Shown here: piece by piece, positions 34,718 to 39,458 of the stretch
Layout of the letters: each line of letters opens with the position of its first letter
Position numbering within the stretch: position 1 is the stretch's first letter
Origin: Archaeoglobus sulfaticallidus PM70-1
Lineage (GTDB): Archaea; Halobacteriota; Archaeoglobi; Archaeoglobales; Archaeoglobaceae
Reading direction: 5' to 3'
Length of the DNA stretch: 64,000 bases
Assembly (NCBI RefSeq): GCF_000385565.1
Contig: NC_021169.1
Coordinates: 434,001-498,000 of the forward strand
Notes under the pieces: generated by a model
Database searches by the model: none
What the model saw: the letters and a program-made list of their open reading frames with translations, nothing else
Told to the model about the DNA's origin: nothing
Program-made: the position numbers and the translations under genes

Positions 34718-36361
34718 TTAAAAGACCTGCGGGGCCCTGAATTCACCAAAAACCTCTCTCAGAACATCCGTGATCTCACCAAGCGTTGCCTTGGCCTTGA
34801 CACACTCGAGTATTGGCGGCATAAGATTGTCGCCACTCTCTGCAGACCTTCTCAGCTTATCCAGTGCCGATTCAACCTTTGACTTATCTCTGCTATCTCT
34901 GAACCTCTTTAACCTTTCAATCTGCTTTCTTACCATGTTTTCATCTATTCTGAGAATCTCAAGCTGGATCTCCTCTTCGATCTGGTACTTATTCACACCA
35001 ACAACCGTAATCTCTCCGGAGTCTATCTTCTTCTGCTTTTCATAAGCGCTCTTCTGAATTTCCCTCTGTGGGAATCCCTGCTCTATTGCTTTGATCATTC
35101 CGCCCATCTCATCTATCTTCTCGATGTACTTCATCGCTTCCTCCTCTATTTTGTCGGTAAGCCATTCGAGATAGTAACTACCCCCGAGTGGATCGACAAC
35201 ATCAGCAACTCCGCTCTCTTCAGCAATGATTTGCTGAGTCCTTAGAGCTATTCTTACAGCTTTCTCCGTTGGCAGGCTCAGAGCCTCATCGAAGCTGTTG
35301 GTATGCAGGCTCTGGGTCCCTCCGAGCACCGCAGCAAGAGCCTGAATCGTAACCCTGATAATATTGTTCTCGGGCTGTTGAGCTGTCAATGTGCAGCCAG
35401 CGGTTTGGGTGTGGAACCTGAGCATCATCGACCTCTTGTCTTTGGCTCCAAACCTGTCTTTCATTATCTTGGCCCACAACCTCCTTGCCGCCCTGAACTT
35501 CGCAACCTCCTCAAGCAAATTGTTTCCAGCAGCAAAGAAGAAGCTCAGTCTTGGAGCGAACTCATCAACCTTCATCCCCCTCTCGATAACCTTCTCGACA
35601 TAGGTGATTCCATCAGCCAGCGTGAATGCGACCTCCTGAACTGGAGTTGCTCCAGCCTCCTCCATGTGATAGCCTGAGATGGATATCGAGTTCCACTTAG
35701 GAACCTCTTTCGCACAGAACATGATTATGTCCGTTGCGAGCTTTATCGAAGCCTCTGGCGGGAAGATGTATGTCCCTCTCGCGATGTATTCCTTCAGCAT
35801 GTCATTCTGCACAGTTCCTCTGAGCTGAGCTCTCGACACTCCCTGTGATTCTGCTATTGCTATGTACATGCTCAGTACCTGAGCGCAGGTTGAGTTGATC
35901 GTCATCGATGTTGAAACCCTATCAAGAGGAATCCCATCGAAGAGTATCTGCATGTCCTCTATCGTGTCAATGGCAACTCCAACCTTGCCAACCTCTCCGG
36001 CAGCCATTGGGTGGTCTGAATCATATCCGATCTGGGTTGGCAGATCAAAAGCAACACTCAAACCGGTCTGACCCTGTTCAAGCAGATACTTGTACCTCTT
36101 GTTCGTCTCTTCGGCAGTGCCAAAACCAGCATACTGCCTCATTGTCCACAGCCTTCCTCTGTACATCGTTGGGTAAACTCCTCTTGTGAACGGATATGCA
36201 CCGGGAAAGCTCAGCTCCTCTTCATAATCGATTGTTACATCTTCAGGTGTGTAAACTCTATCAACCTCAAAACCAGAAGCGGTTTTAAACTCCTTTTTCC
36301 TCTCTCCAGCCTTCTTCAGGAAGGGATCGAGATATTTTTCCTCCCACTCCTTCTTGTTCAT
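34718..36361 (-). CDS. mcmA1: Methylmalonyl-CoA mutase, large (catalytic) subunit
   Basis: This 547-residue protein holds the TIM-barrel substrate-binding part. Typical blocks are [64 protein letters not shown] and [11 protein letters not shown]. The cobalamin-binding domain is absent here and encoded by the separate gene at 38941-39357, the split form common in archaea. The enzyme interconverts succinyl-CoA and (R)-methylmalonyl-CoA. It is the last gene of the minus-strand operon. Confidence 0.95.
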
Positions 36362-36412: not shown

Positions 36413-36832
36413 TTAAGAAATGTATGCTACAACATCTCCGGCAGACACTCTGTCTCCTTCTTTAACTGTGATCTTGGTTATCTTACCGCTCTTCGGAGCA
36501 GATATGGCATTTTCCATCTTCATGGCTTCGAGAATCAGTATGTCTTCTCCCTCTTCAATCTCTTCTCCCTCATTCTTCAGAACTTTGGTTATCACGCCAG
36601 CCATCGATACCTTAACCGGGGTTCCCTCACCAGCCTCAACCTTTTCAGCTTTCTCAACTCTCTCAACTCTCTCCACTTTCTCCACTTTCTCCTCAACAGG
36701 CTTTGCAAATGAAACCTCTTCAACCTTTATCGTTGCAGTCTTTCCAGAAACGCTGACGGAGAAGACATTCGGTTCGATCTCCTCAACCTCCACATCGTAC
36801 TTCTTGCCCTTAACAAAAACGCTATACTTCAT
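36413..36832 (-). CDS. Biotin carboxyl carrier protein (decarboxylase gamma-type subunit)
   Basis: This 139-residue protein has a small N-terminal beta domain, then a stretch rich in Val-Glu-Lys-like repeats (VEKVERVERVEKAEKVEAG). That linker is flexible in function and low in complexity. A C-terminal biotinyl domain carries the lysine in EAMKMENAI. The linker corresponds to the Pro/Ala-rich arm of bacterial carriers. It is co-transcribed with the carboxyltransferase and the small subunit between them. Confidence 0.93.
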   Translation of the reverse strand: MKYSVFVKGKKYDVEVEEIEPNVFSVSVSGKTATIKVEEVSFAKPVEEKVEKVERVERVEKAEKVEAGEGTPVKVSMAGVITKVLKNEGEEIEEGEDILILEAMKMENAISAPKSGKITKITVKEGDRVSAGDVVAYIS

Positions 36833-36841
36833 CGCACCACC

Positions 36842-36964
36842 TCACAACCTCGAGAGCATCTTCCAGTAGCTGAAACCCCTCTTTACTTCCGGTGGTCTCT
36901 CCCTCGACTCCATCAGATACCTGTGGATGGCAGCAATTGCCGCAACAAACTCATCAGCCTCCAT
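36842..36964 (-). CDS. 40-residue small subunit of the carboxylase/decarboxylase (OadG/epsilon-like)
   Basis: Translation on the minus strand from the ATG at 36964 to TGA at 36842 gives 40 residues. They are acidic/alanine-rich at first (MEADEFVAAIAAIHRYL), then basic and Trp-containing (PEVKRG, then SYWKMLSRL). Small subunits of methylmalonyl-CoA decarboxylases and related biotin carboxylases show the same plan: an AAIAAAI-type helix followed by a basic SPWK-like tail. It sits exactly between carboxyltransferase and biotin carrier genes, ten bases from each, with GGTGATAGA before its ATG. It is too short for common gene-finding cut-offs. It may bridge the two large subunits. Confidence 0.7.
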   Translation of the reverse strand: MEADEFVAAIAAIHRYLMESRERPPEVKRGFSYWKMLSRL

Positions 36965-36973
36965 TCTATCACC

Positions 36974-38530
36974 TCAGAGCGGTATGTTTCCATGCTTCTT
37001 TGGAGGCAGCTTCTCCCTCTTTGTATCTATGATTCTCAAGGCGGAGATTATCTTGCTCCTCGTGAATTTTGGATCGATAACATCGTCTATGTAACCCCTC
37101 GATGCAGCCCTGTACGGGTTGGCGAACCTCTCTCTGTATTCAGCAATCTTCTGTAGCTTGGTCTCCTCTGGGTTGTCAGAAGACTTTATCTCCTTCCTGA
37201 AAACGATCTCTGCAGCACCTTCTGGACCCATTACTGCTATCTCTGCTGTTGGATAGGCGTACACTATGTCAGCTCCAAGATGCTTGCTTCCCATCGCTAT
37301 ATAAGCTCCTCCGTAAGCTTTCCTCAGGATTATCGTTACGAGCGGAACGGTAGCCTCGCTGTAAGCGTACAGAATCTTGGCACCATGTCTGATTATCCCG
37401 CCATATTCCTGATCAACTCCCGGCAGATAGCCCGGAACATCCATGAAGGTTATTATCGGGATGTTGAAGGCATCACAGAACCTCACAAACCTCGCTATCT
37501 TATCGCTCGAGTTGACATCGAGCGTTCCGGCGAAGAACTTTGGATTGTTGGCTACTATCCCAACACTCCTGCCATCCATCCTTGCGAATCCAACAGTAGC
37601 GTTTGGTGCGTAGTTTGCATGGATCTCAAAGAACTCCCCATTATCCACGACCTCTCTGATCACATCTCTTACATCGTAGGGCTTCTGCGGGTCCTCAGGG
37701 ATTATATCGTATATTCTTGGAGTTGTTCTCGCAGGATCATCTCCTGTTTGAATTACAGGGGGATCGTCGAGGTTGTTAAGAGGGAGATAACTAATCAGCT
37801 TTCTTACGAGCTGTAGTGCATGAACATCATCCTCAGCAACAATATGACAGTTCCCGCTTTTTACTGCATGAGCTTCCCATCCACCAAGCTCCTGTGGAGT
37901 TATCTCTTCACCAGTAACGGTCTTGATAACCCCTGGCCCGGTTATGAACATGTAACACGACTTGTTCTTGGTCATTATTATGAAGTCCCCTATTGCAGGG
38001 CTGTAAACCGCTCCTCCAGCACATGGACCCATGATAACAGATATCTGCGGTATTACACCGCTTGCGAGGGTGTTTCTGTAGAATATGTCTCCGTATCCCT
38101 TCAGGGCATCAACACCCTCCTGAATCCTCGCCCCTCCTGAGTCATTGAGTCCTATTATCGGAATTCCCATCTTCATTGCGAAATCCATGATGTAGGCGAT
38201 CTTGTATCCGTGCATCTCTCCAAGGCTTCCTCCCATGACGGTAAAATCCTGGGCGAACACTGCAACAGGCCTGCCATCTATCGTTCCATAACCAGTTACA
38301 ACACCATCTCCTGGAAGGTAAACCTTATCGAGGCCAAAATCTGTGTTTCTCTTCTCCACAAAGGGATTTATCTCGTTAAAACTTCCCTTGTCGAGCAGTA
38401 TCTCTATTCTCTCCCTCGCTGTCAGCTTTCCCAGCTCGTGCTGCTTCTTTATCCTTTCCTCCCCACCCATCTTTTTTATCGTTTCCTTTCTCTTATACAC
38501 CTCGTTAACGAGATCTTTCATCTTTTTCAT
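36974..38530 (-). CDS. mmdA: Acyl-CoA carboxyltransferase (methylmalonyl-CoA decarboxylase alpha / propionyl-CoA carboxylase beta)
   Basis: This encodes 518 residues from the ATG at 38530, which follows a strong GAGGAGGGAT; an in-frame TTG at 38545 is less likely. Both crotonase-like halves are present: [49 protein letters not shown] (acyl-CoA oxyanion hole), then [25 protein letters not shown] and [16 protein letters not shown]. It transfers CO2 between biotin and propionyl-CoA/methylmalonyl-CoA. Direction (carboxylation or decarboxylation) cannot be told from the sequence; neither a biotin carboxylase nor a membrane beta subunit lies in the operon. Confidence 0.92.
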
Positions 38531-38541
38531 TGAATCCCTCC

Positions 38542-38931
38542 TCAACCCTCAACGAACTCCAGCAGCACACCTTTAGTGCTTTTCGGATGTACGAATGCAA
38601 CCTTCTTTCCACCGGCACCAATCCTTGGCTTCTCGTCGATGAGCGTCAATCCCTCTGCCTTGACCTTTTCGAGGGCTCTCTCAATGTCTTCAACATTTAT
38701 GGCGATGTGGTGTATTCCCTCACCCCTCTTCTCAATGAACTTGGCAATGGCGCTTTCTGGAGATGTAGCTTCAAGCAGTTCGATCTTGCTTTCTCCAACA
38801 GGGAGCATGGCAACCTTAACCTTCTGTTCCTCAACCTCCTCAATTCCCTTTACCTCAAAACCGAGCTTTTTGTACAGTTCAACGGCCTCATCCAGATTTT
38901 TTACAGCGATACCGATATGGTCTATCTTCAT
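38542..38931 (-). CDS. mce: Methylmalonyl-CoA epimerase
   Basis: This 129-residue vicinal-oxygen-chelate protein is built from two beta-alpha-beta-beta-beta units. Metal ligands are visible in [12 protein letters not shown] (His) and [12 protein letters not shown] (His), with the C-terminal glutamate in GVLLEFVEG. The enzyme interconverts (R)- and (S)-methylmalonyl-CoA, linking the carboxyltransferase with the mutase encoded on both sides of it. Spacing to its neighbours is only a few bases. Confidence 0.95.
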
Positions 38932-38940
38932 ATACTCACC

Positions 38941-39357
38941 TCAGCTAACCTTTTTTATTTTTGAAACACTCTCTCTGATGAAGGAGATGATTTCCTCGAG
39001 AGGTGTTCCTGGTCCAAATATCCCGGAAAATCCAAGCTCTTTTAGCTTGTCAACATCTTCTTTTGGTATAATTCCACCAATTAGCAGCACAACATCTTTG
39101 TTTGGCTCTAAACCCCTCTTCCTCAACTCCTCAATGATCATGGGTGAAAGCTCGAGATGAGCCCCGCTTAAAATGCTGAGTCCAATAACATCGACATCCT
39201 CCTGAAGGGCAGTTTCAGCAATTTCGGATGGAGTCCTTCTGATTCCAGAATAGATCACTTCAAAACCCGCATCCATCAAAGCTCTCGCAACAACCTTAGC
39301 CCCCCTGTCATGTCCGTCAAGTCCGGGTTTTGCGACAAGAACTCTAATCTTTCTCAC
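38941..39357 (-). CDS. mcmA2: Methylmalonyl-CoA mutase, small cobalamin-binding subunit
   Basis: This encodes 138 residues from a GTG start at 39357, chosen because GGAGGTGGG lies immediately upstream; earlier in-frame starts lack a site. The cobalamin motif DxHxxG is D14-G-H16-D-R-G19 ([11 protein letters not shown]). Conserved SILSGAHL and [10 protein letters not shown] blocks follow. The histidine replaces dimethylbenzimidazole as the lower ligand of B12. It heads the minus-strand operon of the methylmalonyl-CoA pathway. Confidence 0.94.
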
Positions 39358-39458
39358 TTTCCCACCTCCAGAATGAGCTTTAATTAACCCAAAATTGGAA
39401 ATTTTGAGATAAATATCTTTCGAAATTATCATTAAGGATAAAAAAGAATTATTTAAGA

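Follow-up and report, generated by a model that had tools for sequence, protein, structure and literature searches.

How are the biotin-dependent carboxylases of archaea assembled, and does their assembly involve a subunit small enough to be missed? These questions are raised by a 40-amino-acid open reading frame (ORF) of Archaeoglobus sulfaticallidus PM70-1, which lies in the 64,000-nucleotide stretch of DNA that was analysed here (the window; GC content 44.2%) and belongs to a genome of one contig and 2,076,931 bases (G000). In published work, it is called unclear whether the two-subunit pyruvate carboxylases of archaea share the bacterial architecture (PMC5059739), and the suggestion that one biotin carboxylase serves both kinds of carboxyltransferase (CT) in Archaeoglobus fulgidus is given as untested to its authors' knowledge (PMC3199775).

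The ORF (36842..36964, minus strand), which we propose to encode an epsilon-type docking subunit, was delimited by open-frame reading, conservation and selection; it starts with ATG, and its product is MEADEFVAAIAAIHRYLMESRERPPEVKRGFSYWKMLSRL. Upstream lies mmdA, the gene for a CT of 518 aa (36974..38530, minus strand; TIGR01117 (mmdA) E 7.7e-288, at 955 bits slightly below the cut-off of 999; Carboxyl_trans 693 bits), and downstream lies mmdC, the gene for a biotin carrier of 139 aa (36413..36832, minus strand; Biotin_lipoyl E 2.3e-19), with spacers of 9 nt to the mmdA stop and 9 nt to the mmdC start. A Shine-Dalgarno sequence, GAGGTGAT (36968..36975, minus strand), was read directly from the DNA; it overlaps the mmdA stop codon and is separated from the ATG by 3 nt. 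Along the minus strand, the operon runs from the B12-binding subunit of methylmalonyl-CoA mutase (38941..39432; TIGR00640 191 bits, cut-off 57) through methylmalonyl-CoA epimerase (38542..38931; TIGR03081 174 bits, cut-off 115), mmdA, the ORF and mmdC to the mutase large subunit (34718..36361; TIGR00641 925 bits, cut-off 304). The original prediction of a short ORF with its own ribosome binding site between CT and carrier genes was thus confirmed, and its assignment of the operon to methylmalonyl-CoA chemistry holds, since Pfam and NCBIfam models identify an mmdA-type CT, a biotin carrier, an epimerase and both mutase parts. The further expectation, that the ORF goes unannotated in relatives, may hold, the signs for it being indirect. 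A paper on A. neptunius gives the cluster as five accessions, WP_202319622-WP_202319626 (PMC8322695); the cluster here has six genes. The ORF of the window matches no Pfam or NCBIfam model, and 18 of its family members compared with Pfam gave scattered, chance-level matches to unrelated families (E 0.009 or more). We read 30 genomes, A. sulfaticallidus included, for the gap between CT stop and ORF; it measures 9 nt in 19 of them, the extremes being -4 and 22 nt, and AGGTG occurs within 22 nt upstream of the ORF in 25 of the 30, a raw count with no chance control. As a separate observation, mmdA, the ORF and mmdC share one reading frame in the window (36413-38530, minus strand), with TGA and nine nucleotides between each pair; this is not so in relatives with overlapping starts.

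Is the ORF a gene? In a first sample of 40 genomes, which includes that of the window, matches at E<=1 were found in 21, of which three weak ones (G009, G020, G039) were dropped from the counts. The 18 genomes with strong matches (E<=2.6e-4) all belong to the family Archaeoglobaceae, and in 18/18 the ORF is flanked by a CT and a carrier-type ORF. Family genomes with the ORF number 18 of the 24 sampled, and its presence can be set against that of the CT, which was found at E<=1e-50 in 20 of the 24: the ORF occurs in 18 of these 20 and in none of the four others (G007, G010, G017 and G021, in which no CT was found at that threshold). The two exceptions, G009 and G020, have a CT at 71-72% identity without the ORF. 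A second sample of 294 genomes of the phylum, from which 25 of 64 match rows were dropped (each with an E of 0.002 or more), gave strong matches in 39 genomes, all of them among the 51 that the sample lists for this same family. Selection at the amino-acid level is evident: over 38 gap-free codons of 18 sequences, pairwise pN/pS is 0.35, compared with a mean of 0.89 and a minimum of 0.59 in 200 site shuffles; pairs of sequences differ on average by 0.32, 0.22 and 0.58 at the first, second and third codon position; and eight residues (E5, F6, A12, Y16, P24, W34, K35 and R39) are invariant in 18/18. Lack of conservation of the frame in related genomes or lack of codon-level selection had been named beforehand as grounds for giving up the prediction, and we found the frame at the same locus in all 18 genomes and the codons under constraint. 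The 40-residue ORF is a genuine protein-coding gene under purifying selection.

What kind of protein does it encode? The best leads come from the C-terminal ends of two larger proteins. A profile of the 18 ORFs matched seven MmdD tails at E 1.1e-7 (probability 94), five biotin-carboxylase tails of Archaeoglobaceae at E 1e-5 (probability 82) and eight biotin-carboxylase tails of Bacteroidota at E 7.7e-5 (probability 62), while MmdD tails and biotin-carboxylase tails matched each other at E 3.7e-11. In each of the three ORF comparisons, 0/200 column shuffles reached the observed score; the tails had been picked by eye beforehand, and the shuffles control for composition and not for that choice. 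The Bacteroidota match is the weakest, its score of 22.5 standing by a small margin above the shuffle maximum of 18.5 and the 16.9 of reversed tails. The tail sets were drawn from seven of the ten genomes with an MmdB match (A8), from 5 of 11 family biotin carboxylases, six being left out (A9), and from 8 of 13 bacterial ones, five being left out (A10); mixed MAFFT alignments with distant tails or unlinked carrier rows (A3, A5, A6) were misplaced and were kept out of the models. These profile matches bear out the expectation that the ORF has the Ala-rich helix and the basic, Trp-containing tail seen in small subunits of biotin enzymes. The helix-plus-Trp tail occurs in A. sulfaticallidus in three forms, i.e. 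as the free ORF, on biotin carboxylase, which ends in SESWKIDARIKNLRWL, and on the membrane anchor MmdD (101 aa), which has a helix of this kind and a Trp-Lys...Ala-Arg motif at its C-terminal end and finishes with EWKKTARVEQVML; the latter two occurrences are additions to what the original prediction had described. Among the 11 Archaeoglobaceae carboxylases read, the full tail accompanies the ORF in five genomes (G000, G006, G012, G013, G015) and a divergent, Trp-bearing tail accompanies it in three (G008, G011, G014); of the three genomes without the ORF, G009 and G010 have the helix without the Trp and G007 (81% complete) has the Trp. The carboxylase-tail Trp therefore does not track the presence of the ORF cleanly, and the idea that it might is no more than a lead.

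The same tail can be followed outside the family. We examined 80 loci around MmdA relatives in named bacterial and archaeal records, assigning classes by eye from pattern scans. The tail is a free ORF in 6 loci, is anchored to the membrane in 12 and belongs to a biotin carboxylase in 13, and a PF13822-like ORF is present in 10; the remaining 39 showed none of these four classes by the same scans. Free tail ORFs are found in Archaeoglobi (L095-L098) and Thermofilales (L106, L116). In Thermococcus (L099) and Moorella (L102), among others, a membrane helix precedes the tail, and the proteins match OAD_gamma; in Thermoanaerobaculum (L113), a planctomycete (L162) and others, the tail ends an adjoining biotin carboxylase. 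In loci of the L113/L162 type, the next gene encodes a carrier of 173-180 aa whose N-terminal segment is long. Within the family, several genomes have carriers with tandem biotinyl domains in one ORF, with two AMK motifs 72-89 residues apart (L009, L012, L096, L189 and L194).

Structural comparison suggests what such a tail might do. Searches of the PDB returned no relevant chain for the ORF, whether its single sequence or its profile was used; for the biotin-carboxylase tails, matches extended into the region of the BT helix in several chains (up to profile position 75 in 8f41 and 5ks8, for example) and up to position 95 of 100 in human PCC (7ybu). When the ORF and MmdC were modelled with AlphaFold as one read-through chain (pTM 0.40), the ORF formed a helix at residues 3-21 (pLDDT about 85) followed by a hook of low confidence, and MmdC contributed a four-stranded sheet at 45-80 (45-51, 54-64, 67-72, 75-80; block means 76-88) before its carrier domain. 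The best Foldseek match of this model is a two-subunit pyruvate carboxylase (5ks8, E 1.2e-9), and VIA aligned model residues 1 to 183 with the stretch of PCC-alpha from BT domain to carrier (7ybu 519-728) with an rmsd of 13-17 Å in the end-to-end rows; the scores of these fold matches are carried mostly by the carrier domain. In a 705-residue read-through model of CT, ORF and MmdC, built with one copy per chain and with three alignment rows covering the ORF and practically one covering MmdC, the ORF had no defined place and block-mean pLDDT values of about 29-43, so that this model is evidence for nothing on docking.

Precedents for a split BT-type domain are provided by the structural literature. 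In a two-subunit pyruvate carboxylase, the C-terminal Ala-rich helix of the carboxylase and four-stranded sheets of the other subunit are described as forming a BT-like domain, and deletion of the helix or an A465R substitution as abolishing the holoenzyme (PMC5059739). For geranyl-CoA carboxylase (GCC), a hook is described directly after the BT helix; its Trp, mostly conserved among GCC and MCC enzymes, is reported to lie buried in the CT subunit, between the two domains of that chain (PMC4673880). The tail of OadG is reported to bind the alpha subunit of oxaloacetate decarboxylase (PMC7274780). With these precedents, we consider it probable that the ORF product is an epsilon-type assembly subunit of MmdA and helps to hold a propionate-metabolising enzyme together: a BT-type helix-plus-hook on a chain of its own, paired with the MmdC sheet and docked on MmdA. 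In such an assembly, the Ala-rich helix of residues 4-20 (36905..36955, minus strand), a candidate BT-type central helix by its modelled fold and by the profile match to the tails, would be wrapped by the four-stranded sheet predicted for the first 40 residues of MmdC (36713..36832, minus strand), so that two polypeptides would share one BT-type domain; the Trp34-Lys35...Arg39 hook (36848..36865, minus strand) would bind MmdA; and the ORF would keep the swinging biotin carrier attached to the CT core. Biotin carboxylase, for carboxylation, and MmdB by way of MmdD, for sodium-pumping decarboxylation, have tail copies of their own and could use the same or equivalent sites. We infer binding to MmdC and MmdA, tethering and shared sites as the most likely arrangement. 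All three named hook residues are invariant in 18/18, and pLDDT for the hook is low in both models, so the contact between hook and CT stays a proposal. Likewise, we propose from order and invariance, not from alignment, that W34 is equivalent to the BT hook Trp; the Trp columns are not covered in the five printed PDB alignments of the biotin-carboxylase tails, and we therefore make no claim of a sequence match between tail Trp and hook Trp.

A natural variation on this arrangement is found in two sister genera, of which eight sampled genomes have the ORF (G012, G022, G136, G155 and G274 in one; G016, G078 and G292 in the other). We read seven of the eight loci, leaving out that of G292 (L011, L013, L018, L032, L036, L040, L045). 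In all seven, the CT is shortened, measuring 407-432 aa from stop to stop, and both loops of its N domain, DSGGAR and GPCAGGA, are lost; the next ORF, of 38-49 aa, is the N-terminal sheet segment of MmdC alone, without a biotin domain; this carrier stub overlaps the 40-residue-type ORF by four bases in six. Both small ORFs are under purifying selection: pN/pS is 0.26 for the stub (seven sequences; shuffle mean 0.69, 0/200) and 0.19 for the ORF (six sequences; shuffle mean 0.86, 0/200). One biotin-carrier match each is present in G012, G016 and G022, outside the cassette. Genes resembling those of 2-oxoacid:ferredoxin oxidoreductases, named by eye, lie downstream in L011, L032, L036 and L040 and, as the first gene only, in L013; the next long ORF of L045 is of a different type, and L018 ends at the cassette. 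The tail follows the CT, being kept beside seven degenerate CTs without an adjoining biotin domain, and these seven cassettes are the strongest sign that ORF and sheet form a joint scaffold on the CT. A broader reading, which we offer tentatively and regard as rather unlikely as a whole, is that the helix-plus-hook is an interchangeable docking plug that allows alternative holoenzymes in one cell, and that plug, bare stub and degenerate CT make up a biotin-free complex in the sister genera. If that were true, one CT core would combine with two carriers and with three plugs, of which one is free, one is borne by biotin carboxylase and one by the sodium-pump anchor; the same MmdA could act in carboxylation or in decarboxylation; and the scaffold would have a role outside biotin chemistry, in several genomes beside the oxidoreductase-like genes.

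With which partners, then, would the proposed epsilon-type assembly subunit work? A. sulfaticallidus has one MmdA match (E<=1e-50), one biotin carboxylase, one MmdB and two biotin-carrier matches at the thresholds used. The rival with the best standing holds that the ORF product, like Veillonella MmdE, is a subunit that simply stabilizes a sodium-pumping methylmalonyl-CoA decarboxylase; it would hold MmdA to the membrane part MmdB-MmdD, with no special relation to MmdC; this is quite possible, if short of an even chance, and it is compatible with the assembly-subunit reading. It draws on the relatedness of the ORF to MmdD tails and on the genus, in which MmdB and the ORF are each found in 6/6 genomes and two models found no biotin carboxylase in five of the six (G001-G005); the complex there can hardly be an ATP-driven carboxylase. 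The argument against it is that three genomes (G012, G014, G015) have the ORF and a biotin carboxylase and no MmdB match, so the ORF is not tied to the pump; since it is present with either partner, it goes with the CT and not with one partner. A common plug on several components fits the sharing of MmdA and carriers in A. sulfaticallidus, and we infer that the components might compete for the same site. Regarding the pump genes themselves, A. sulfaticallidus has a second operon, mmdD-mmdC2-mmdB (L078, G000:C1:1891726-1893525), unlinked to the first and without an adjoining CT; mmdA is present in 5/5 congeners (G001-G005), mmdB in 5/5 and a PycB-type gene in 4/5, with two or three biotin-carrier matches in each of G001-G004, a gene content which, with no biotin-carboxylase match, points to use as a decarboxylase or transcarboxylase. 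Elsewhere, mmdB appears split between two frames (G006:C1:1265785-1266830 and G013:C74:3007-4055, with stops inside one G013 piece), possibly by decay or assembly error.

A second rival, which is also compatible with an assembly subunit of MmdA and which we regard as possible and on balance doubtful, makes the ORF the archaeal counterpart of actinobacterial AccE/PccE (PF13822), bridging CT and biotin carboxylase. The gene directly follows that of the CT in both systems, and a helix start of the form TPEE(F/I/L)..A is common to both. The ten PF13822-like ORFs of the 80 loci are actinobacterial, follow the CT and are 65-88 aa long, and 2/2 tested match PF13822; the free Thermofilum ORF (L116) gives a weak match below the cut-off (E 0.13). 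AccE was proposed by Lombard and Moreira as a substitute for the BT helix (PMC3199775). Against these points, none of the 18 ORF members matches PF13822 (E<=10), the profile comparison of ORF and PF13822 is weak (E 4.8e-4, probability 32, with no shuffle control), and the ORF is kept in five genomes without a biotin-carboxylase match. Membership of the ORF in PF13822 is accordingly not something we claim from so weak a sequence resemblance.

The remaining two rivals fare less well. Propionibacterium transcarboxylase is the model for the sharing of a carrier between an MmdA-type and a pyruvate-type CT, and the ORF could be an adaptor that helps MmdA share MmdC with PycB. Consistent with this idea, a PycB-type match is present in A. 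sulfaticallidus and in four of its five congeners, which have no biotin carboxylase, and the single PycB of A. sulfaticallidus (477 aa) and its counterpart in G001 (478 aa) have no carrier domain, in a genome (G000) with only two biotin-carrier matches; however, the sequence read on the sides of PycB in G000 and G001 contains no carrier or mmd gene, and the degenerate cassettes keep the ORF with no adjoining biotin domain, so we judge the adaptor improbable. That the ORF is a translated spacer, coupling mmdA translation to that of mmdC through an inert peptide, would suit the tight spacing and the overlap with the next start codon in some relatives, but the amino-acid-level selection, the eight invariant residues and the relatedness to protein tails of MmdD and biotin carboxylase leave it very little room.

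If the ORF is the epsilon-type assembly subunit that we propose, there are practical consequences. A missed subunit of 40 residues could make reconstitutions fail; the ORF offers a single-residue test, W34; and the interval between CT and carrier genes, where the Pfam library used finds nothing, is the place to seek other small subunits of this kind. Our search of the literature on epsilon subunits of acyl-CoA carboxylases and methylmalonyl-CoA decarboxylase, on Archaeoglobus and on Veillonella, covering the portions of those sources that were available, returned none evidently about an archaeal epsilon subunit.

How does the ORF compare with the systems already characterized? Veillonella MmdE, a small epsilon subunit that confers stability on methylmalonyl-CoA decarboxylase and resembles the delta tail, is encoded with mmdD and mmdB, whereas those genes are unlinked from the ORF here. 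Actinobacterial AccE/PccE, for which there are AccE5 structures (30hu, 9t97, 9tdm, 9yx1, 9yx2, 9yx4, 9yx5), is likewise small, encoded directly after the CT (as the ORF is in 18/18) and possessed of a TPEE-like helix start, whereas it is longer and its profile is not matched by the archaeal members. The tail of MmdD/OadG (OAD_gamma, PF04277; the MmdD of A. sulfaticallidus scores 27.2 bits, cut-off 27) consists, like the ORF, of a helix and then Trp-Lys...Arg; unlike MmdD/OadG, the ORF is the tail alone, with no Pfam match and, judged by eye over its 40 residues, no transmembrane helix. By its sequence, the ORF carries an MmdD-type C-terminal tail, and we propose that it docks by means of it. 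In two-subunit pyruvate carboxylase (5ks8), an Ala-rich helix at a chain end pairs with the four-stranded sheet of another subunit (PMC5059739), as we propose for the ORF, in which the helix is the product of a separate gene and bears a Trp hook. Finally, the alpha subunits of PCC, MCC and GCC present the same order that the ORF and MmdC present together, i.e. helix, hook, strands and carrier; there, the BT domain is an eight-stranded barrel in one chain, whereas here the elements are divided between two genes, with four strands per MmdC.
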